A stretch of 64,000 bases of DNA from Thermophilibacter immobilis (GTDB lineage Bacteria > Actinomycetota > Coriobacteriia > Coriobacteriales > Atopobiaceae), in contig NZ_CP063767.1 in assembly GCF_015277515.1 (NCBI RefSeq), forward strand, positions 682,001 to 746,000, written 5' to 3'. Below are positions 5,703 through 63,052 of this stretch, in pieces (position 1 is the first letter of the stretch; each line of letters opens with the position of its first letter). The notes under the pieces were generated by a model, which saw only the letters and a program-made list of their open reading frames with translations, was not told the origin of the DNA and made no database searches. The translations under genes were made by a program, and so were the position numbers.

Positions 5703-7439
5703 CTACAGCGCCCAGCTCGCGCTCTCGCGCTGCAGCTCGACCATGCGGGCGAACTCACCGCCCGTGGCCAGGAGCTCGCAGGGCGCGCCCTGCTCGGCCA
5801 CCCTCCCGTCGACGAGGACCACGACCTTGTCGGCGCTCTCCACCGTGCGCATGCGGTGGGCGATCACGATGACGGTCTTTCCGGTCAGGAGGCGGCTCAG
5901 CGCCTTCTGGACCTGCGTCTCGTTCTCCACGTCAAGAGATGCCGTGGCCTCGTCGAGAAGGACGATCGGCGCGTCCTTGAGCAGGGCCCGGGCGATGGAG
6001 ATCCTCTGGCGCTCCCCGCCGGAGAGCTTGGAGCCGTTCTCGCCAATCATGGTCTGGTAGCCGCCGGCCATGCGACCCACGAACTCGTCGCAGTTGGCGG
6101 CCGCCGCAGCGGCAAGGACCTCCTCGTCGGTGGCACCTCGCCGACCCAGACGGATGTTTCCCATCACCGTGTCGTCGAAGAGCAGCACGTCCTGGAAGAC
6201 CACGGCGTAGTCGCCGAGCAGGACCTCGGGGTCTACGCCCGCCACGTCCACGCCACCCACGCGCACCTGTCCGGACGTGACGTCCCAGAAGCGCGCCGCG
6301 AGTTTGGAGCAGGTGGACTTGCCGGAGCCCGAGGGCCCCACCAGAGCCGTGACCTCGCCCTCCTTTGCGGTGAAGCTCACGCGGTCGAGGACCTTCTCGC
6401 CGCTCGCGCCCCCATAGGAGAAGCTCACGTCGTCGAAGACCACGTCATGGCCAGAGGGGTCGAACGCCTTGCCTCCTCCGGCGAGCGGCTCCTCGTAGAA
6501 GGAGCGCATGCGCGCGGAGGCCGTCTGGGCGGAGAAGAGCTCGGCGATGAGCATGAGGCACTGGTCGAAGGGGGCGTAGATGCGCGAGACCACGAGCAGG
6601 AAGCAGAAGAGCGTGATGAAGTCACAGCTCCCCTGCAAGACGAGAGCTGCGCCCACCAGGACGGTGGTCGCAAGGCTCAGGCGAAGCACGATCTGCGCGC
6701 CGTTCACGCACAGGCCGTTGGCGAGCTCGCCCTTGACGGTCGTGCGCTCCGCCGCGTCGATGTCGGAGCGGATGCCGTCGAGGTAGCGCTCCTCCTGGTT
6801 GGTGGCGCGCACCTCGCGGACGCACTCGAGGGCCTCCTGGATGTCGTCGGAGACCGCGAGGTTGCCCAGACGCGTGGCTCGGGAGAGGGGGGCGAGGAAG
6901 TGACGCGCGCCGAACAGCAGCGCGAGGCCCACCGGGCAGCTCCACAGAGACGCGAGCGCGGGACGCCAGTCGAAGGCGAAGAGCCCCACGGCGGCCACGG
7001 CCAGCGTGACGTAGGCGCCGTAGAGCTCGGGCAGCACGTGGCTGTAGGCGTGCTCGATGGTCTTGACGTCGCCCATGATGGTCTCGGTGAGGTCGGCGAG
7101 GTCGCGTCGGCCAAAGAAGGAGAGCGGCAGCTTGCGCAGGCGCTCGGCCAGGCCGATGCGCTGCCGGCCGCTCTCCACGTAGATGACCCCGTACTGGTAG
7201 TAGTACGCGTAGTACTCGGTGATGAACAGGATCACGATGAACGCAATGAGGCCCAGTGCGTACGGCGCGAGGCTCGGCAGCGCCGTCCCCTCGCTCAGGT
7301 GGGCCATGAGCTCCTGCATGAGCAGGTAGAACACGCCCACCCCGCCAAAGGTCGCAAGGTTGGAGACGGCCGTCCACACGGTGCCCAGCTTGACGTTTCG
7401 CGCGCCGTCGTCAGTGAGCCCGTACTTCTCCTTCAGCAT
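5703..7439 (-). CDS. ABC transporter permease-ATPase, second subunit of a siderophore-type pair
   Basis: 578-residue half transporter: about six membrane helices in the first 300 residues, then an ATPase with Walker [10 protein letters not shown], signature LSGGERQR, Walker B IVLLDEATASLD and the switch His (AHRM). The start is the ATG of the TAATG overlap with the upstream subunit, so the two are translationally coupled and probably form a heterodimer. The open frame extends far upstream, but that part only shadows the neighbouring gene. The arrangement with a divergent AraC gene resembles YbtA-YbtPQ and IrtAB iron-siderophore uptake systems, in which exporter-fold ABC proteins work as importers. 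Drug or peptide export cannot be excluded. Confidence 0.9.
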   Translation of the reverse strand: MLKEKYGLTDDGARNVKLGTVWTAVSNLATFGGVGVFYLLMQELMAHLSEGTALPSLAPYALGLIAFIVILFITEYYAYYYQYGVIYVESGRQRIGLAERLRKLPLSFFGRRDLADLTETIMGDVKTIEHAYSHVLPELYGAYVTLAVAAVGLFAFDWRPALASLWSCPVGLALLFGARHFLAPLSRATRLGNLAVSDDIQEALECVREVRATNQEERYLDGIRSDIDAAERTTVKGELANGLCVNGAQIVLRLSLATTVLVGAALVLQGSCDFITLFCFLLVVSRIYAPFDQCLMLIAELFSAQTASARMRSFYEEPLAGGGKAFDPSGHDVVFDDVSFSYGGASGEKVLDRVSFTAKEGEVTALVGPSGSGKSTCSKLAARFWDVTSGQVRVGGVDVAGVDPEVLLGDYAVVFQDVLLFDDTVMGNIRLGRRGATDEEVLAAAAAANCDEFVGRMAGGYQTMIGENGSKLSGGERQRISIARALLKDAPIVLLDEATASLDVENETQVQKALSRLLTGKTVIVIAHRMRTVESADKVVVLVDGRVAEQGAPCELLATGGEFARMVELQRESASWAL

Positions 7440-9286
7440 TACGCCACCTCCCCTGAGGTACTCGAGATCTTCCAGCTCACGGCCTGCTCGTAGTCGGCCC
7501 ACATCCGTGCGTAGAGCCCGCCGGCGCCCAGAAGCTCGTCGTGGGTTCCCTGCTCGGCCACTCGGCCGTGGTCGAGCACCACGATCTTGTCGGCGCGCAC
7601 TACGGTGGAGAGGCGGTGGGCGATCATGAGGACCGTGCGCGGGCGTCCGTCGGCGTCCGTGGCGAGGCGCCTGAAGGCCTGCTGGATGCGCGCCTCGTTC
7701 TCGGGGTCGGCGAAGGCCGTGGCCTCGTCGAGCACCACGATCGGCGCGTTCTTGAGGACGGCGCGGGCGATCATGAGGCGCTGCACCTCGCCGCCCGAGA
7801 GGTAGACGCCGTCGGCGCCCACCACGGTGTCGATGCCGTGGGGGAGCTTCTCGACGATGTCGGCGCACCGAGCGGCCTCGAGCGCGGCCAGGACCTCGTC
7901 CTTCGAGGCGCTCGGACGCGCCGCCCGCACGTTCTCGAGGATGCTCTGCTTGAAGAGGCGGTTGGCCTGGAAGACGAAGGCCACGTGGTCCATGAGGTCG
8001 GCGGGGTCCATGGCGCGCACGTCCACGCCGCCCACGCGCACGGAGCCGGCGTCGACGTCCCAGAAGCGCGGCACGAGGGAGGCCGCCGTGGACTTGCCCC
8101 CACCCGAGGGGCCCACGAGCGCCACCGTGGCGCCGGCAGGGACCTCGAAGCTCACGTTGCTGAGCGCCGCCTGGTCGCCACCTTCGTAGGCAAACGTCAC
8201 GTCGTCGAAGGAGATGGCGTTGTCGGCGAGCCTCTGCGGGTGTGCCGGCGCCTCGATGACGGGCGCCGCGAGCACCTCGCTCACGCGCGCCACGGAGTCC
8301 TGGGCCGTCTGGAGGGCGTCGGAGATGAACATCACGCGCGTCATGGCCGTCGGGACGATCGCCGAGAAGATCGCGTAGAACGCGAAGTTGGTGAGGAAGC
8401 GCGCGAAGTCAGCCTCGCCGGGCGCGAGCAGGATCACGACGGGGGCCAGAAAGGCGGCCACGCCGTTGATGACCGTGAGCGAGAGCGACTGTGGCACCTG
8501 GCACCACTTGACCGCGTAGTCCTGTGCGAGCTCCGTGAACTCCTGGATGGCGTCGTAAAAGGCCTTGAACGAATGGACCGTCTGCTGGAAGACCTTGACC
8601 ACGGGAATGCCGCGCACGTACTCGGTGCCCGTCTTGTTCATCTTGACGAGGGAGCCCATGTAGCGCGACATGAAGTCCATGCCGCGCCCGCCCATCATCT
8701 TGGCGAAGCACGCGAGCGAGACGACCACGGCCGCGAGGCACGCCAGTCCGAGACGCCAGTCGAAGACGAAGAACAGCACGAGCATGCCCACGACCATGGC
8801 GACGGAGCCGGCCGTGTCGGGCAGCTTGTGAGCGAGGAGCCCCTCGGTCTCCGCGGCGCAGCCGTCCACCACGCGCCTGAGCGCGCCGGAGGCGTGGCTG
8901 TCGAAGTAGCCGAGCGAGGTGTGCATGAGGTGCTCGGTCGCTGCCTTGCGCATGTTCGAGGCGCAGCGAAACGCCGAGAGGTGCGTGCACATGAGCGCCC
9001 CGAAGTAGATGACGATCGAGAGGGCCGAGAAGCCCAGCGCCACCCAGCCGTATCCGGCGATGCTCGTCGCCTCCTCCCAGCGGGGAGCGACGGCGATGAG
9101 GTCGCGTGCCACGAGCCAGATGCAGACGTAGGGGACAAAGCTCACGAGCATGGAGACGGCCGAGAGGGCGCAGCCCAGATAGGTGAGCACGCGTCTCCTG
9201 CCCGAGAAGGCGAGCAGCTGAGCGATGGCGCTCCGCCCGTTCGGGGAGCTCGAGGCGCCCCGCCCCTCCGGCGGTTCTTTTGCCAT
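7439..9286 (-). CDS. ABC transporter permease-ATPase, first subunit of a siderophore-type pair
   Basis: 615 residues: an exporter-fold membrane domain, then an ATPase with Walker A GPSGGGKST, signature LSGGEVQRL and Walker B VVLDEATAFADPENE. The ATAFADPENE form of the Walker B/D-loop is typical of YbtP/Q- and IrtA/B-type siderophore transporters, which is the main reason for the functional call. The ATG at 9286 has a strong AGGAGG site 6 bases upstream. An 18-bp dyad (9307-9324), shared with iron-linked genes elsewhere in the window, lies 20 bases before the start. It overlaps the downstream subunit by one base (TAATG). Confidence 0.9.
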   Translation of the reverse strand: MAKEPPEGRGASSSPNGRSAIAQLLAFSGRRRVLTYLGCALSAVSMLVSFVPYVCIWLVARDLIAVAPRWEEATSIAGYGWVALGFSALSIVIYFGALMCTHLSAFRCASNMRKAATEHLMHTSLGYFDSHASGALRRVVDGCAAETEGLLAHKLPDTAGSVAMVVGMLVLFFVFDWRLGLACLAAVVVSLACFAKMMGGRGMDFMSRYMGSLVKMNKTGTEYVRGIPVVKVFQQTVHSFKAFYDAIQEFTELAQDYAVKWCQVPQSLSLTVINGVAAFLAPVVILLAPGEADFARFLTNFAFYAIFSAIVPTAMTRVMFISDALQTAQDSVARVSEVLAAPVIEAPAHPQRLADNAISFDDVTFAYEGGDQAALSNVSFEVPAGATVALVGPSGGGKSTAASLVPRFWDVDAGSVRVGGVDVRAMDPADLMDHVAFVFQANRLFKQSILENVRAARPSASKDEVLAALEAARCADIVEKLPHGIDTVVGADGVYLSGGEVQRLMIARAVLKNAPIVVLDEATAFADPENEARIQQAFRRLATDADGRPRTVLMIAHRLSTVVRADKIVVLDHGRVAEQGTHDELLGAGGLYARMWADYEQAVSWKISSTSGEVA

Positions 9287-9306
9287 GGGTCCTCCTTTGG
9301 CTTGTT

Positions 9307-9324
9307 AGTTACCATCCCCTAACT
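9307..9324 (-). promoter_or_regulatory. Putative metal-responsive operator, site 1
   Basis: On the minus strand this reads AGTTAGGGGATGGTAACT. The half-sites AGTTA and TAACT are perfect complements around 8 bases. It lies 20 bases before the ABC operon start and immediately after an AT-rich GATAAG stretch. The same 18-bp pattern occurs at 11692-11709 and 62625-62642, in the same position relative to the start. Confidence 0.65.
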
Positions 9325-9404
9325 TATCATGGGGACGAGCGGGGGGAGCCAGGCCGGCGTCCCAACGGGACGAATTCGAAACGAAAGGCGTCGCGCGCGC
9401 AACC

Positions 9405-10376
9405 ATGCGGTACACAGAGACGCTCACGGATCTTGAGACGCTCTATCTGCCCCAGGTCGAGCAGTTCGGCATCGAGCTCGCCCCCTGCGGGGAGGCCCTC
9501 GTGGGCCAGGTCGACAGCGACGCGGCGCGCGCCTCGATGTGCGTCTACCGGCTCGGAAAGGACTGCGTGGTCGAGGCGCACCGGATTCTCGTGCGCCGCG
9601 ACCTGCCCCTGTACGAGAGGGGCGTCGACAGCCTGTGCATCAGCTCCCTGTCAGCCGACAGCCTCGCCCTGTGTCCCGTCGCCCCGGTCGAGAAGGTCGT
9701 GGGTGCGCCGCGGTGCCTGGCGGTCTTCGGCCAGAGGAGCGGCGAGACCACCACGTGGCTGCGCGCCGGCTCGCGCCACGACTCCTCCTCGGTCGTGTTT
9801 CTCCCTTCGCGCCTCAATCGCCTGGACGCGCACGAGCGGCGTGCGGCCCGCGCGCTCGTCGAAGAGCCCGGACTGGTCTGCGCGGACGGGTGCGCCTCGT
9901 CCGTGGGCTCGTCGATAGACGCCGTCATGCCGCTCTTCGGGGGGAGGCTCGCGCGCGGGCGCACACTCGACGCGCAGGTCGATCGCGCCCTCCTTGGCGT
10001 GCTGGCCTGGCGCGAGGAGTGCGAGCGCGCCGAGCGGGCGGCGGGCACGCACGAGCGGGCGCTCGTCGTGCGCGGCGTCAAGAACTACGTCACCCTGCAC
10101 CTGAGCGAGCCGCTCACCCTGGACGTGCTCGCCCACGACCTGCTCACGAGCCGCACGCGCCTGTGCGCGACGTTTCAGTGCGCGACGGGGCAGAGCGTGG
10201 GGTCCTTTGTCCGGAGCGCCCGCATCGCACGGTCCAAGGAACTCCTCGCGGTGCGCAGCCTGGGCGTGGCCGAGGTGGCGCACGCCGTGGGATACCCGCG
10301 CACGTCGAGCTTCACCGTGGCCTTCGAACGCGAGGAGGGCCTGTCGCCCTCCGCCTGGCGCGCCGCGCGCCCGTAG
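9405..10376 (+). CDS. AraC-family transcriptional regulator
   Basis: 323 residues. The last about 100 residues form the double helix-turn-helix of the AraC/XylS family (LTLDVLAHDLLTSRTRL, then LGVAEVAHAVGYPRTSSFTVAFERE). The N-terminal 200 residues show no recognisable cupin motif and have a YbtA-like length. The start ATG at 9405 has GAAAGG upstream. It is divergent from the siderophore-type ABC pair, with 118 bases between the starts, and is probably its activator by analogy with YbtA. A shared dyad operator sits in this gap, nearer the ABC side. Confidence 0.87.
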   Translation: MRYTETLTDLETLYLPQVEQFGIELAPCGEALVGQVDSDAARASMCVYRLGKDCVVEAHRILVRRDLPLYERGVDSLCISSLSADSLALCPVAPVEKVVGAPRCLAVFGQRSGETTTWLRAGSRHDSSSVVFLPSRLNRLDAHERRAARALVEEPGLVCADGCASSVGSSIDAVMPLFGGRLARGRTLDAQVDRALLGVLAWREECERAERAAGTHERALVVRGVKNYVTLHLSEPLTLDVLAHDLLTSRTRLCATFQCATGQSVGSFVRSARIARSKELLAVRSLGVAEVAHAVGYPRTSSFTVAFEREEGLSPSAWRAARP

Positions 10377-10431: not shown

Positions 10432-10467
10432 CTTGAGCCATTAAAACGGCACATGAAAGGCATGCGT

Positions 10468-11280
10468 ATGTTTGATGCAAACGTCCTCCAGGCGCTCGCG
10501 TGGGCGGCGCTCGGCTGTGGCTTCACGTGGCTCATGACGACCGCCGGGGCTGCGGTCGTGTTCTTCTTCAAGTCCGACCGCGACCTCACGCACCACATCT
10601 TCCTGGGGTTCGCCGCCGGCGTCATGGTGGCGGCGAGCATGTGGTCCCTGCTCGACCCCGCGATAGAGCAGGCCGAGGCCCAGGGCGTTCCCGGCTGGAT
10701 CCCGGCGGGCGGCGGGTTCTTGCTGGGCGTGGCCTTCCTCATGGTGCTCGACTCGATCCTGCCGCACCTGCACCCCGAGGCGGACGAGCCCGAGGGCATC
10801 CGCACGAGCTGGAAGCGCACGACCCTGCTCGTCTCGGCCGTGACGCTGCACAACATTCCCGAGGGCATGTCGGTGGGGCTGCTCTTCGCGATGGCGGCCC
10901 AGGCCACGGGGGCCGCCGCCAGCTCCTACCTGGGCATGGCCTTCGCGCTGGCCATCGGCATCGGCCTGCAGAACTTCCCCGAGGGCGCGGCCGTCTCCCT
11001 GCCGCTCGCCCGCGAGGGGATGAGCCGCGGCAAGGCCTTCGTCATGGGGAGCCTGTCCGGGATCGTCGAGCCCATCTTCGGCATCCTCGTGGTGCTCGTG
11101 AGCAAGCAGATCACGTCGTTCATGCCCTGGCTCCTGGCCTTTGCGGGAGGAGCCATGATCTACGTGGTGGTCGAGGAGCTCATCCCCGAGTCGCACCTCG
11201 GCGAGCACTCGAACGTGGGCACTCTCGGCTTCATTGGCGGCTTCGTCATCATGATGGTGCTCGACGTCGCCCTGGGGTAG
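10468..11280 (+). CDS. ZIP-family divalent metal transporter
   Basis: 270 residues with about eight hydrophobic segments. The two ZIP metal-site helices are clear: HNIPEGMSVGLLFA and QNFPEGAAVSLPLA. A short HLHPE cytoplasmic loop replaces the usual His-rich loop. Predicted uptake of Zn(II), and possibly Fe(II) or Mn(II), across the cytoplasmic membrane. Three in-frame ATGs compete (10453, 10462, 10468); AAAGG lies 7 bases before 10468, so that one is chosen. It follows the AraC gene but has its own extended -10, and it ends in a terminator. Confidence 0.93.
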   Translation: MFDANVLQALAWAALGCGFTWLMTTAGAAVVFFFKSDRDLTHHIFLGFAAGVMVAASMWSLLDPAIEQAEAQGVPGWIPAGGGFLLGVAFLMVLDSILPHLHPEADEPEGIRTSWKRTTLLVSAVTLHNIPEGMSVGLLFAMAAQATGAAASSYLGMAFALAIGIGLQNFPEGAAVSLPLAREGMSRGKAFVMGSLSGIVEPIFGILVVLVSKQITSFMPWLLAFAGGAMIYVVVEELIPESHLGEHSNVGTLGFIGGFVIMMVLDVALG

Positions 11281-11296
11281 GACGCCCGATACGGCT

Positions 11297-11330
11297 CGCC
11301 CGATTCGACTTCGTTTCGGGCGCTTGTTTT
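11297..11330 (+). terminator. Terminator after the ZIP gene
   Basis: A 7-bp stem CGCCCGA / TCGGGCG (11297-11303, 11316-11322) followed by CTTGTTTT. Confidence 0.7.
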
Positions 11331-11367
11331 AAATACCACCACTCAACTCGGAATTATGGAGAGACTG

Positions 11368-11414
11368 TGTTAGACAAGGTTTACATTGAAAGTTAGCCTT
11401 CCTTTACCTATTCT
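11368..11414 (+). promoter_or_regulatory. Consensus promoter carrying two tandem metal-box-like sites
   Basis: TTGAAA (11386-11391), a 17-bp spacer and TATTCT (11409-11414) make a near-consensus promoter. Two degenerate copies of the 18-bp box lie in it: TGTTAGACAAGGTTTACA (11368-11385) and AGTTAGCCTTCCTTTACC (11391-11408). They are 23 bp apart, and the second fills the -35/-10 spacer exactly. This suggests metal-dependent repression of the transcript that starts near 11420. Confidence 0.5.
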
Positions 11415-11419
11415 CTTAA

Positions 11420-11540
11420 ACGTGCTCGCAAGGGCACGGGACATGTTTAACCCAGCCTGAGCGGCGGACCCTCTCCCCGCTGCAAATGGCAATCTTTGCG
11501 CCACCTGCCAACCCCCTCTAGGCAGGTGGCGCCTTTGTGC
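11420..11540 (+). ncRNA. Candidate metal-regulated small RNA
   Basis: A good promoter at 11386-11414 and a strong terminator at 11498-11532 bracket about 120 bases without a credible ORF; only a 5-codon frame (ATG at 11453) is present. An internal imperfect stem (TTAAAC...GTTTAA with GTGC/GCAC inside) is possible. Both ends are inferred from sequence alone; a very short leader peptide is the alternative. Confidence 0.4.
11498..11540 (+). terminator. Strong orphan terminator
   Basis: A perfect 12-bp stem GCGCCACCTGCC / GGCAGGTGGCGC with an 11-nt loop, followed by CTTTGT. It lies 218 bases past the ZIP stop, after that gene's own terminator, so it must end a different transcript. Confidence 0.85.
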
Positions 11541-11691
11541 GTCGCGCTTTGCCCTCCAAAATTTCGTTGCCCCGACCCTTGCGATGGGTGCGCTTTCGCC
11601 CTCGCGCCAGCGCATCAGAACTCGTCCGATCGCCCGGCTCGTTTCTCCCTAGACGATAAGTTTTCTATGGTGTACTCTTCTCCAGACCACA

Positions 11692-11709
11692 AGTTAGCGA
11701 GTGGTAACT
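11692..11709 (+). promoter_or_regulatory. Putative metal-responsive operator, site 2
   Basis: AGTTAGCGAGTGGTAACT, with perfect AGTTA/TAACT half-sites. It ends 17 bases before the ATG of the DUF3793 gene. It differs from site 1 only in the central bases. Confidence 0.65.
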
Positions 11710-11726
11710 CAAGGGAAGGAGGCGCG

Positions 11727-12398
11727 ATGGGAAAGGGGATTGAGGTCTGCCTGGCCGGCCTGCAGGGAGCGGGAACCCTCGAGGACGCCCTCGAGGCCGA
11801 GTTCGTCGACTGCCTCGTGCGGCAGGCAGGTCTCGTGCTGGTGGGCGAGAAGCCCGCGGCCCTCTTTGGCTTCAGGCCCCGCTCGCATGGTGCGGCCCCC
11901 GATGCCCGCGCCGCGCGCCTCCTCTCGGGCAGGCTGCTTGTCGCCTATGCGAAGCGCACCAAGGCCTACGGGGTGCGCATCGTGTGGCTCGCCGAGCGCG
12001 AGGGAGGCCCCATGCTGCTCGCGTGGCGCCCCGCCCAGGTGGCAGGGCTCCTCGACGACGAGGCCGCCCGCGCGCTCATGGCGAGCTGCGGTCTTCCGAC
12101 CGCCCACGCGGCCCGGCTCGTCTCGGACCTCGTGCGGCGTCTGCGCGCCTACTACGCGGGGCGCGGGCCCTTCCCGCACGAGGTGGGGCTCATCTTGGGC
12201 TATCCGGTTGCCGACGTCGCCGGCTTCATGGCTGATGGAGGGCGCGGCGCCGTCGCGTGTGGGCGCTGGAAGGTGTACGGAGACCCCGTGCGGGCCCGTC
12301 GTCGCTTCGACGAGCTCGGGCGCCACGAGCGTCTCTGCAAACGGCTCTACGCCGAGGGGGCACCCATGGGGGAGCTCCTTCGGATGGGAATGGCGTAG
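11727..12398 (+). CDS. DUF3793 family protein
   Basis: 223-residue soluble protein of the DUF3793 family (the LLSGRLLVAYAKR and FPHEVGLILGYPVADVAGFM regions are typical). No catalytic motif is recognised and the function is unknown. Family members are commonly next to a flavodoxin gene, as here (40 bases downstream). The ATG has a strong GGAAGGAGG site. The frame is open further upstream, but that part lacks a ribosome site and crosses the operator. The operator at 11692-11709 suggests that the pair is induced by metal (probably iron) limitation, when flavodoxin replaces ferredoxin; that is inference. Confidence 0.85.
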   Translation: MGKGIEVCLAGLQGAGTLEDALEAEFVDCLVRQAGLVLVGEKPAALFGFRPRSHGAAPDARAARLLSGRLLVAYAKRTKAYGVRIVWLAEREGGPMLLAWRPAQVAGLLDDEAARALMASCGLPTAHAARLVSDLVRRLRAYYAGRGPFPHEVGLILGYPVADVAGFMADGGRGAVACGRWKVYGDPVRARRRFDELGRHERLCKRLYAEGAPMGELLRMGMA

Positions 12399-12438: not shown

Positions 12439-12867
12439 ATGGGCAAGAGCGTCGCGATCGTCTATTGGACCGGGACCGGGAACACCGAGGAGATGGCCCA
12501 AGCCTTTGAGGCGGGCGTCACCGAGGCAGGCGGCACGCCCAAGCTCGTGGGCGTGGCGGACTTCTCGGCCGGCGAGGTCTCCTCGTATGACGCTTTGGCC
12601 TTCGGGTGCCCGGCCATGGGCGACGAGGAGCTCGAGTCGGAGGAGTTCGAGCCGGTCTGGGACGCCTGCAAGGAGGTGCTCGGGGGCCGTCCCGTCGTGC
12701 TCTTTGGCAGCTACGCATGGGCTGACGGCGACTGGATGGTCAACTGGAAGGAGAACGCGGACGCGGCGAGCGTGAACGTGGTCGCCACGGTCACGGCCTT
12801 CGAGGCTCCCGACGACGACGCCCAGGCGGCCCTCAAGGCGGCCGCGAAGACCCTCGTCGAGGCATAG
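12439..12867 (+). CDS. Short-chain flavodoxin
   Basis: 142 residues, the usual size of a short flavodoxin. The FMN phosphate loop is WTGTGNTEEMA (residues about 10-20), the isoalloxazine-flanking loop is CPAMGDEELE and the third loop is FGSYAWADGDWM. A cytoplasmic one-electron carrier able to replace ferredoxin. AAGGAGG precedes the ATG, and it forms an operon with the DUF3793 gene. Confidence 0.94.
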   Translation: MGKSVAIVYWTGTGNTEEMAQAFEAGVTEAGGTPKLVGVADFSAGEVSSYDALAFGCPAMGDEELESEEFEPVWDACKEVLGGRPVVLFGSYAWADGDWMVNWKENADAASVNVVATVTAFEAPDDDAQAALKAAAKTLVEA

Positions 12868-13889: not shown

Positions 13890-13924
13890 CCGAAGTTTCG
13901 TCTTCTCTGAGGGGAGAGGCCGGC

Positions 13925-14131
13925 ATGACCCCATTTGATATCGTCATACTCGCCGTCGTGGCAGCGGCAGTGGCCCTGTGCGTTCGCTATCTGATCAGGT
14001 CCAACAAGGACGGCTGTTCGGACTGCGGCAGCGCGTCCAGCTGCAGCGCCTACGAAACGGGAGCTCCCTGCAGCGCGGCCGAGAACATGCTGCGCCATGC
14101 GGACGCGGCCCTCTCCGCCAAGAAGAAGTAG
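13925..14131 (+). CDS. FeoB-associated Cys-rich membrane protein
   Basis: 68 residues: one N-terminal membrane helix (MTPFDIVILAVVAAAVALCV), a short basic stretch, then a Cys-rich tail with CSDC, SSCSAY and APCS. This is the architecture of the FeoB-associated family, which is usually encoded with feo genes; its role in Fe(II) uptake is not established. GGGGAGAGG precedes the ATG. A longer frame starts at 13874 inside the promoter. Its N-terminus matches the N-terminus of the gene at 62660 (PFDIV...AAVAL). Confidence 0.85.
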   Translation: MTPFDIVILAVVAAAVALCVRYLIRSNKDGCSDCGSASSCSAYETGAPCSAAENMLRHADAALSAKKK

Positions 14132-41038: not shown

Positions 41039-41666
41039 GCAGCGGATCTCGTCGATGAGTGCCTTTTCAGAGATGTTGCTGGCCAGGCGGACGTTGTAGA
41101 CGAGCTTGAAGACGCTGCCCATGTTCGCGGTGGACACGCTCGCCAGCTCGCGCTCGCTCAGATAGCGCTCGAAGATGTCGTCGAACAGGGAGGTGTAGTC
41201 GAGGTCCTCGGGAATCGAGATGTGGATGGCGCGGTCAAGCAGGGGACCGTTGCCGGATCCGAAGCCGGAGAGCTGGTAGATGAGGTAGATTCCGCCAAGG
41301 AGTATCGTGGTGATGGCGCCCACGACAAGGTAGCCCATGCCGCAGGCCAGGCCCACACACATGGCCAGGAACACGAAGCCGATGTCGCGCGCCGAGCCGG
41401 GGACGCTCCTGAAGCGCATGAGCGAGAAGGTGCCCGCCACGGCGACGCCGGTTGCCCACGTTGCCGTTGACCAGCGCAATCACGGCGCAGACGATGGCCG
41501 GCAGCACGGCGAGCGTCACCACGAAGCTCCTGGTGTGTCGGTTGCGCACGCAGTAGACGCCCGCGAGGGCGAGGCCCAGGAGAACCGCCACTAGAATGCA
41601 GATGATGAGGGGCAGAAGCTCGACGCTGTCTGTGGTGGTCGTGGTCGAGAAGAGCGATTCAGTCAT
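41038..41666 (-). pseudogene. DUF4956 membrane protein, frameshifted and 3'-truncated
   Basis: It starts normally at 41666 (AGGAG site; TESLFSTTTTTDSVELL and two membrane helices), then breaks after VIALVNGNVG. One extra T at 41451-41454 (plus strand) shifts the frame. The rest continues in another frame (TGVAVAGTFSLMRFRSVPGSARDIGFVFLAMCV... FKLVYNVRLASNISEKALIDEIRC). The family's C-terminal end (RNGNLEI-like) is absent because the sequence jumps into the carbohydrate-binding remnant. Either a real double lesion or an assembly error. Confidence 0.78.
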
Positions 41667-62619: not shown

Positions 62620-62642
62620 GGTATAGTAAGTACCAGTTTACT
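62620..62642 (+). promoter_or_regulatory. -10 box fused to a putative metal operator, site 4
   Basis: GGTATAGT (62620-62627) shares its AGT with AGTAAGTACCAGTTTACT (62625-62642). The half-sites AGTAA and TTACT are perfect complements; the change from AGTTA is compensated on both sides. It ends 17 bases before the start, exactly as at 11692-11709. Confidence 0.65.
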
Positions 62643-62659
62643 CTGCGGGGAGGGGTCCC

Positions 62660-63052
62660 ATGAGTCCGTTCGACATCGTCCTTATCGTCCTCGTCATCGC
62701 TGCTGTGGCCCTAGGGGTCCGGCGTGCTATAGGTACGGCCCGCGGCACACGCGACTGCTGCAGCGGTGCGGTCAAGGACTCCGGCCGCACGAGCGCGGAT
62801 GCGGCTTCCGTAAGCGTGTCCGACATCGATCCCTCGCACTATCCCTACGAGGCAGTCCTCGAGGTGGGGGGCATGACCTGCGAGCACTGCGTGTCCAACG
62901 TCACCAACGTGCTCAACGGCGTCGAGGGAACCTGGGCTACGGTCGAGCTCGCAGGCGGCCAAGCCCGCATACGCTCCAAGCCCCCGATCAATGAGGATCT
63001 CCTGCGCGCGGCCTTGGAGGCGGCGGGTTACCGGCTCGTTTCCCTGCGCTAG
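62660..63052 (+). CDS. FeoB-associated membrane segment fused to an HMA domain
   Basis: 130 residues. Residues 1-22 are a membrane helix (SPFDIVLIVLVIAAVALGV) like that of FeoB-associated Cys-rich proteins, followed by a short CCSG segment, a linker of about 35 residues and an HMA domain (VGGMTCEHCVSNVTNVLNGVEG) that should bind one soft metal ion through CxxC. The HMA domain would face the cytoplasm, close to a transporter. GGGGAGGGG precedes the ATG. The promoter carries the shared metal operator. A metallochaperone tied to Feo-type transport is a reasonable guess, but the ligand pair favours Cu(I) or Zn(II) over Fe(II). Confidence 0.85.
   Translation: MSPFDIVLIVLVIAAVALGVRRAIGTARGTRDCCSGAVKDSGRTSADAASVSVSDIDPSHYPYEAVLEVGGMTCEHCVSNVTNVLNGVEGTWATVELAGGQARIRSKPPINEDLLRAALEAAGYRLVSLR

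Follow-up and report, generated by a model that had tools for sequence, protein, structure and literature searches.

The closest described counterparts of the RNA locus reported here are FsrA of Bacillus subtilis and IsrR of Staphylococcus aureus, iron-sparing small RNAs (sRNAs) that are repressed by Fur and direct C-rich regions against Shine–Dalgarno sequences (PMC9410917). RyhB and PrrF depend on Hfq (PMC9410917), and MrsI of Mycobacterium tuberculosis is an sRNA that is induced by iron limitation and predicted to be regulated by IdeR (PMC9410917, PMC7029489). For Coriobacteriia, our literature search, confined to open-licence papers, found no iron-responsive sRNA. The window analysed here is the whole stretch of 64,000 nucleotides (G000:C1:682001-746000; G+C 66%) from a one-contig genome of 2,163,714 bases, and we consider it likely that a segment within it (Table 1) encodes a trans-acting iron-sparing sRNA of about 120 nt, which would block the ribosome-binding sites of mRNAs for iron-rich proteins. 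It is probably an undescribed, strongly conserved sRNA, induced by iron starvation, in a group of mouth and gut bacteria. We observed its sequence, structure, conservation, boxes and complementarity, and infer its transcription, repressor, iron signal and translational block; in the absence of measurements of transcription, iron response or target repression, the case rests on comparison alone.

Table 1. Features of the RNA locus and its neighbours, in window positions.
Feature	Position	Strand	Basis and remarks
ZIP-family metal transporter gene	10462–11280	+	upstream of the RNA; same place in 29/30 own-genus loci
TTATGGAGA block, TTRTGRAGA in the genus	11354–11362	+	upstream of the promoter; 30-sequence alignment
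Iron-type operator box 1, GTTAGACAAGGTTTAC	11369–11384	+	pattern match; upstream-box counts; no binding data
−35 hexamer TTGAAA	11386–11391	+	promoter scan; not conserved in relatives (by eye)
Iron-type operator box 2, GTTAGCCTTCCTTTAC	11392–11407	+	inside the promoter spacer; no binding data
−10 hexamer TATTCT	11409–11414	+	promoter scan, alignment
Small RNA, ~120 nt	11420–11540	+	kept in 31/31 genus genomes; both ends inferred, no transcript data
5′ hairpin, stem 11422–11427 / 11432–11437	11422–11437	+	single folds
Conserved linker GTTTAACCC	11444–11454	+	alignment
Hairpin 1, GCC/GGC outer pairs, stem 11461–11467 / 11477–11483	11455–11490	+	alignment, covariation, folds
Hairpin 1 loop ACCCUCUCC with constant CCUCUCC	11468–11476	+	loop counts, folds
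Terminator-like hairpin, stem 11498–11509 / 11521–11532	11498–11532	+	fold, alignment, covariation
C-rich loop AACCCCCUCUA of the terminator-like hairpin	11510–11520	+	short T tract after the hairpin
Separate box GTTAGCGAGTGGTAAC	11693–11708 (genome 693693)	+	precedes the DUF3793-like gene and flavodoxin
DUF3793-like gene	11728–12398	+	tblastn relative of the L166 protein, which matches PF12672
Flavodoxin gene	12439–12867	+	downstream of the DUF3793-like gene

A single sigma-70-like promoter, TTGAAA-17-TATTCT at 11386–11414, was called in positions 10800–12200, where 0.1 was expected, and the near-consensus promoter noted in an earlier sequence-only reading of this DNA is real. The same reading saw two tandem metal boxes, one of them in the promoter spacer, and these also hold: both boxes are exact copies of GTTAG-N6-TTTAC, and box 2 fills 16 of the 17 spacer bases. 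A looser form of the box pattern matched six times in the whole window against 1.64 expected, a number that none of 100 shuffles reached. Relatives retain the −10 region and carry boxes, but by eye the TTGAAA −35 hexamer is not conserved in them; in many of them a GTTA-N8-TAAC box overlies the −10 hexamer. The TTRTGRAGA block was detected about 50 bases upstream of −10 in all 30 aligned own-genus loci (the window and L014–L042), with T27, T28, T30, G31, A33, G34 and A35 invariant across the 30-sequence alignment, and an ATCCCA...TGGGAT inverted repeat accompanies it in a subset of them. The block or the repeat is perhaps the site of a second regulator.

The RNA follows the ZIP gene on the same strand after a gap of 167 nt, as would a mere 3′ end and terminator of the ZIP transcript, but the conserved promoter and boxes intervene, and none of 47 copies retrieved from outside the genus has a ZIP match in its retrieved flanks, yet many have boxes; we find this explanation hardly credible. 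A phage collection gave one match only, 56 bases inside the ZIP gene.

Segment 11420–11545 folds at −57.4 kcal/mol, with a z score of −3.6 against shuffles. The 5′ hairpin, which was folded sequence by sequence and left out of the covariation test, is present in most relatives, where it is usually longer and variable. A strong orphan terminator had been proposed for this segment, of which the strong hairpin at 11498–11532 stands, but the T tract that follows it in the window's own genome is weak (CTTTGTG) and a consensus scan of positions 10800–12200 called no terminator. The further claim that no open reading frame (ORF) exceeds 5 codons here was wrong, as an ORF of 11 codons (M A I F A P P A N P L) starts with an ATG at 11486. 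This ATG occurs in only 2 of 30 aligned sequences, the second in a different sequence context, so we rejected the short ORF as the product, and the conserved short ORF that would have refuted an sRNA did not materialize. The lack of a conserved ORF that is required of an sRNA is met, with changes that follow pairs; no formal coding-potential test was made.

Our sample was a genus of 31 genomes within a family of 140. When the intergenic DNA was used as the query, all 30 other genus genomes gave matches at E up to 0.1, 29 of them as one block of 85–114 bases within window positions 11425–11547; the exception, G026, had only a 23-base match elsewhere, and its copy was found by the covariance model at 108 bits. 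Common to the 29 relatives and the window are the promoter region, the linker GUUUAACCC and two hairpins, hairpin 1 and the terminator-like one, each with a C-rich loop. In the genus core, 99.5% of cells pair and six pairs show 28 two-sided changes; four of five shuffle measures were equalled by none of 500 shuffles, and 331 of 500 did as well on the remaining one, further pair types. Slid controls all fell far short of the real alignment on paired cells and covariation score.

A covariance search of the 11420–11540 segment in related genomes had been suggested as a check, and the RNA passed it. The model, R1, was built from 30 genus sequences, so that 30 of the 31 genus matches had trained it, and at E up to 0.01 it matched 78 of the 140 family genomes, which comprise 31/31 in the genus and 47/109 others and represent 19 of 35 genera. 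A draw across the whole class gave matches at E up to 0.001 in 63 of 396 genomes, only two of them outside the family. Across genera, all 22 pairs show two-sided changes (175 cells against 35.5 in shuffles), a result that rests on 51 model-aligned matches (50 distinct), whose alignment, having been fitted to the model, is biased in its favour. These 51 rows include an antisense match at L144 (23.5 bits) that was dropped from the copy count. The 47 outside-genus copies discussed here are those retrieved and not all copies in the 47 matching genomes, five genomes giving two each. The loop CCUCUCC is found in 31/31 own-genus and 42/47 retrieved outside copies, and it is unpaired in all 73 single folds, with 55 different pairs of flanks among these 73 copies when seven bases on each loop side are compared. 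Related sequences are not independent events. The two matches outside the family, L173 and L174, are weak, come from another family of the same order and may be a distant relative or chance; they lack CCUCUCC and boxes and were not accepted as members, although the 47 copies include them. No model match was obtained at the ZIP-neighbour loci L067 and L068 within the retrieved DNA.

Within 200 bases upstream of the core, 29 of 30 own-genus loci carry the box pattern GTWA-N8-TWAC, with 50 boxes where shuffles give 0.26, as do 26 of the 47 outside copies, with 29 boxes where shuffles give 0.48. With G allowed at one more place, a widening chosen after the sequences had been seen, the count outside the genus rises to 32 of 47 (0.88 in shuffles), 17 with two boxes, at an upstream density of 5.2 per kb, compared with 0.20 per kb in the remainder of these loci. 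The 15 outside copies that lack a box even under the widened pattern include three behind flavodoxin (L144, L168, L168b), four behind enolase (L156, L177, L178, L179), four weak matches (L165, L172, L173, L174) and four that are unexplained (L142, L152, L157, L170).

Boxes in the window's own genome precede feoA (681178), feoB (681853), superoxide dismutase (1601899), an ABC exporter pair (691308) and the DUF3793–flavodoxin operon (693693). Matches at one mismatch number 28 per strand across this genome, against 38 and 37 for a reversed control, and are thus mostly chance, so we gave weight only to promoter-placed copies, a selection of our own. The exporter pair and a divergent AraC-type regulator (window 5703–10376) have an iron-type box between them at 9308–9323 and are possibly an iron-regulated export system. 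In 30 genomes from 18 other genera, all picked from the model-matched genomes (30 of 47), 17 have a box no more than 1 kb ahead of the FeoB nucleotide-binding motif (0.63 in shuffles), and 1/30 has one within 1 kb inside feoB. Of 31 genomes examined, own genome included, 25 have the RNA and the best feoB match on one contig, and in 22 of these the two are at most 40 kb apart, the distance in the own genome being 11.5 kb. A box common to the upstream regions of the RNA and feoB suggests that the signal is most likely iron. The boxes shared by the RNA and feoAB would fit control by an iron-sensing repressor, which is an inference without data on binding or iron response.

The operator box differs from a Fur box, and from its style, without binding data, we infer that the repressor is probably DtxR-like. 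The own genome encodes two DtxR-family proteins, near positions 41360 and 143957 of its contig, as well as two Fur-family proteins. Each of the four might respond to a metal other than iron, and with the ZIP gene upstream in most own-genus loci and the same box before superoxide dismutase, the RNA could instead respond to manganese or zinc starvation. We regard this as unlikely in view of the boxes before feoAB here and before feoB in other genera, of the Fe–S enzymes among the high-scoring start regions described below, and of flavodoxin, a classic iron-sparing replacement.

A trans-acting sRNA should be autonomous, with its own promoter and terminator, and in the own genus this is met, as the promoter region and the hairpin are conserved. 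In 19 of 31 loci there, the next recognised gene is convergent and phosphoglycerate-mutase-like (115–671 bases away), with no flavodoxin, so no downstream gene is needed in these; flavodoxin lies downstream in 3/31 (G026 counted), and 9/31 are unresolved, one of them cut by a contig end. Outside the genus autonomy is mixed, as a same-strand gene often follows: flavodoxin lies 0.37–0.97 kb downstream in the same direction in 15 of the 47 copies, with DUF3793 between in all five loci tested (L141, L159, L160, L166, L171), and at L145, where the RNA has boxes, 54 bases separate the core from the start of an enolase gene. Together with the own-genome operon, which starts 189 nt downstream, these arrangements would suit a cis-acting 5′ leader or attenuator of the following gene (here DUF3793–flavodoxin), whose hairpin stops or passes transcription. 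Such a leader would have no need of the constant loop, however, the own-genome operon has its separate box, and flavodoxin follows in so few own-genus loci that we judge the explanation improbable; as a general function in the genus, a DUF3793–flavodoxin leader was rejected on the 19/31 loci that end in a convergent gene. It is possible that the RNA, while acting in trans, also serves as a leader outside the genus, as a second role. The window's own DUF3793-like protein had no Pfam match at E up to 0.1, and the open-licence literature on DUF3793 held nothing informative.

Some copies sit behind genes instead. Modelled cores start 10–28 bases after flavodoxin genes (L144 1491–1585; L168 825–925 and 1550–1649) and look like part of the mRNA tail, with L168 having two flavodoxin genes in a row and one element behind each. 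One genus (L156, L177, L178, L179), other than that of L145, has the element directly behind an enolase gene with no box within 200 bases, the enolase being identified by Pfam at L156 and by eye from the upstream peptide at the other three.

We found the strongest indication of a target in the mRNA of [FeFe] hydrogenase, whose gene is present in 31/31 genus genomes and whose start region was recovered from 29. Its ribosome-binding site GGAGAGGGG is complementary to the RNA loop and exact in 28 of 29 species, the 29th start region reading GAGAGGGG; the start region carries GGAGAGGG, a complement of the RNA. Duplexes with each species' own loop average −21.4 kcal/mol for hydrogenase, against −9.4 kcal/mol for ZIP (28 species) and −10.2 kcal/mol for mutase (18 species) as controls. 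Columns −20 to −5 are alike at 0.83 in hydrogenase, 0.80 in mutase and 0.33 in ZIP, and bases −35 to −21 of the 29 hydrogenase start regions are 33% alike. As the ribosome-binding region of the mutase is about equally conserved, it is complementarity and not conservation that distinguishes hydrogenase. Hydrogenase was picked after its own-genome score, so the other 28 species are a partial and not an independent confirmation. On this complementarity, hydrogenase is the best-supported target, its repression being inferred.

A wider scan covered 304 called genes in 464 kb of the own genome (20 stretches and the window), using a simple gene caller that left wrong starts, including that of the ZIP gene, and some false ORFs in the list. 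Loop 1 preferred start regions over gene interiors by 2.04 kcal/mol, with none of 40 permuted loops as strong, and loop 2 by 1.88 kcal/mol, with 2/40 as strong; in absolute start-region energy the real loops were not special (26/40 and 37/40 permutations were as low). Among the 30 best of the 304 were the 4Fe-4S [FeFe] hydrogenase at rank 16, NadA at 18 and a second FeoAB at 21, along with unrelated, non-iron genes and doubtful ORFs. Target prediction against Fe–S protein mRNAs points to hydrogenase, but as a class Fe–S genes tagged by motif were not significantly enriched (4 genes of 304, P 0.09–0.14); the tag caught only these four and missed NadA. Searches of the own genome with ribosome-binding-site patterns returned mixed genes and no clear set.

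Two other genes of the window were noted beside the scan. A gene with a heavy-metal-associated domain and a hydrophobic N-terminus (window 62626–63049) ranked first of the 304, with a loop 1 duplex of −27.7 kcal/mol, and itself has an iron-type box at 62626–62641. The gene for a FeoB-associated Cys-rich membrane protein (PF12669; window 13911–14128) has the ribosome-binding site GGGGAGAGG, complementary to nine bases of hairpin 1, CCUCUCCCC.

We suggest that in iron-rich conditions the promoter would be blocked by a metal-dependent repressor bound to the tandem boxes, most likely one of the DtxR family, and that release of this repressor under iron scarcity would allow the RNA to be made together with feoAB and flavodoxin. 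The constant loop CCUCUCC would then pair with G-rich Shine–Dalgarno sequences in mRNAs for iron-rich proteins, as the terminator loop CCCCCUC perhaps also does, and this pairing would stop their translation. The loop is predicted to cover the ribosome-binding site of hydrogenase mRNA and probably those of other Fe–S protein mRNAs too. The hosts are common human mouth and gut bacteria, and iron sparing in Coriobacteriia can be tested directly now that there is a conserved RNA to which a likely regulator, signal and target can be assigned. The RNA also suggests that C-rich RNAs able to block ribosome-binding sites have arisen a further time, and the copies that follow flavodoxin genes give an idea of how RNAs of this kind might pass from free genes to the tails of mRNAs or back.

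Rfam 15 includes RyhB, PrrF and FsrA, and it gave no match at gathering in the window and none above gathering in 20 relatives. The 6C RNA family of Actinomycetota (RF01066) has the same plan of two stem–loops with C-rich loops, and our second hairpin matches it weakly at 24 bits. That is far under the gathering score of 47 and confined to this hairpin, and the 20 relatives searched had no match at E up to 1, so we rejected membership; that the RNA is a diverged 6C member seems very doubtful. 6C RNA is described as higher in stationary phase and located near Ms1 (PMC6582537). The Collinsella-1 motif, RF01700, listed in a structured-RNA survey (PMC2864571), was not among the weak matches of the window or its relatives. 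Membership of CcsR1 (RF02791), a conserved CCUCCUCCC RNA whose two hairpins have CCUCC-type loops, the second terminal as here, was also rejected, because the three relatives out of 20 that matched it scored 28.1, 23.4 and 21.4 bits and 65.3 are needed. CcsR1 is alphaproteobacterial.

We class the RNA as a new family of a known functional kind, the iron-sparing sRNA. With RyhB and PrrF it has in common the functional idea of a repressor-controlled iron-sparing RNA, and it differs from them in having no Rfam match at threshold. MrsI is likewise an iron-limitation sRNA of an actinomycete, albeit a distant one, and as no sequences or structures were compared, a relation is neither shown nor excluded. 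The likeness to FsrA and IsrR extends to repressor-type operators in common with iron genes, single-stranded C-rich regions and Shine–Dalgarno pairing, which is predicted here; they differ in their neighbours and in the lack of an Rfam match at threshold for our RNA, and they are Fur-repressed, unlike this RNA, whose box differs from a Fur box and whose inferred repressor is probably DtxR-like. We put forward, as a proposal whose chances we see as even, that this family, convincing in one Coriobacteriia family only, represents iron sparing that evolved independently of RyhB, FsrA and MrsI, that it controls [FeFe] hydrogenase and hence the hydrogen output of gut and oral bacteria, and that it occurs in two forms, one a free gene with tandem iron boxes and the other an element that immediately follows flavodoxin or enolase genes and could be released from their mRNAs. 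The metal-repressed, RyhB-like iron-sparing RNA of the sequence-only reading is supported, by comparison only, through conservation, covariation, autonomy in most own-genus loci, feoAB-type boxes and the hydrogenase complement; it would work like FsrA and IsrR and not be a RyhB homologue.
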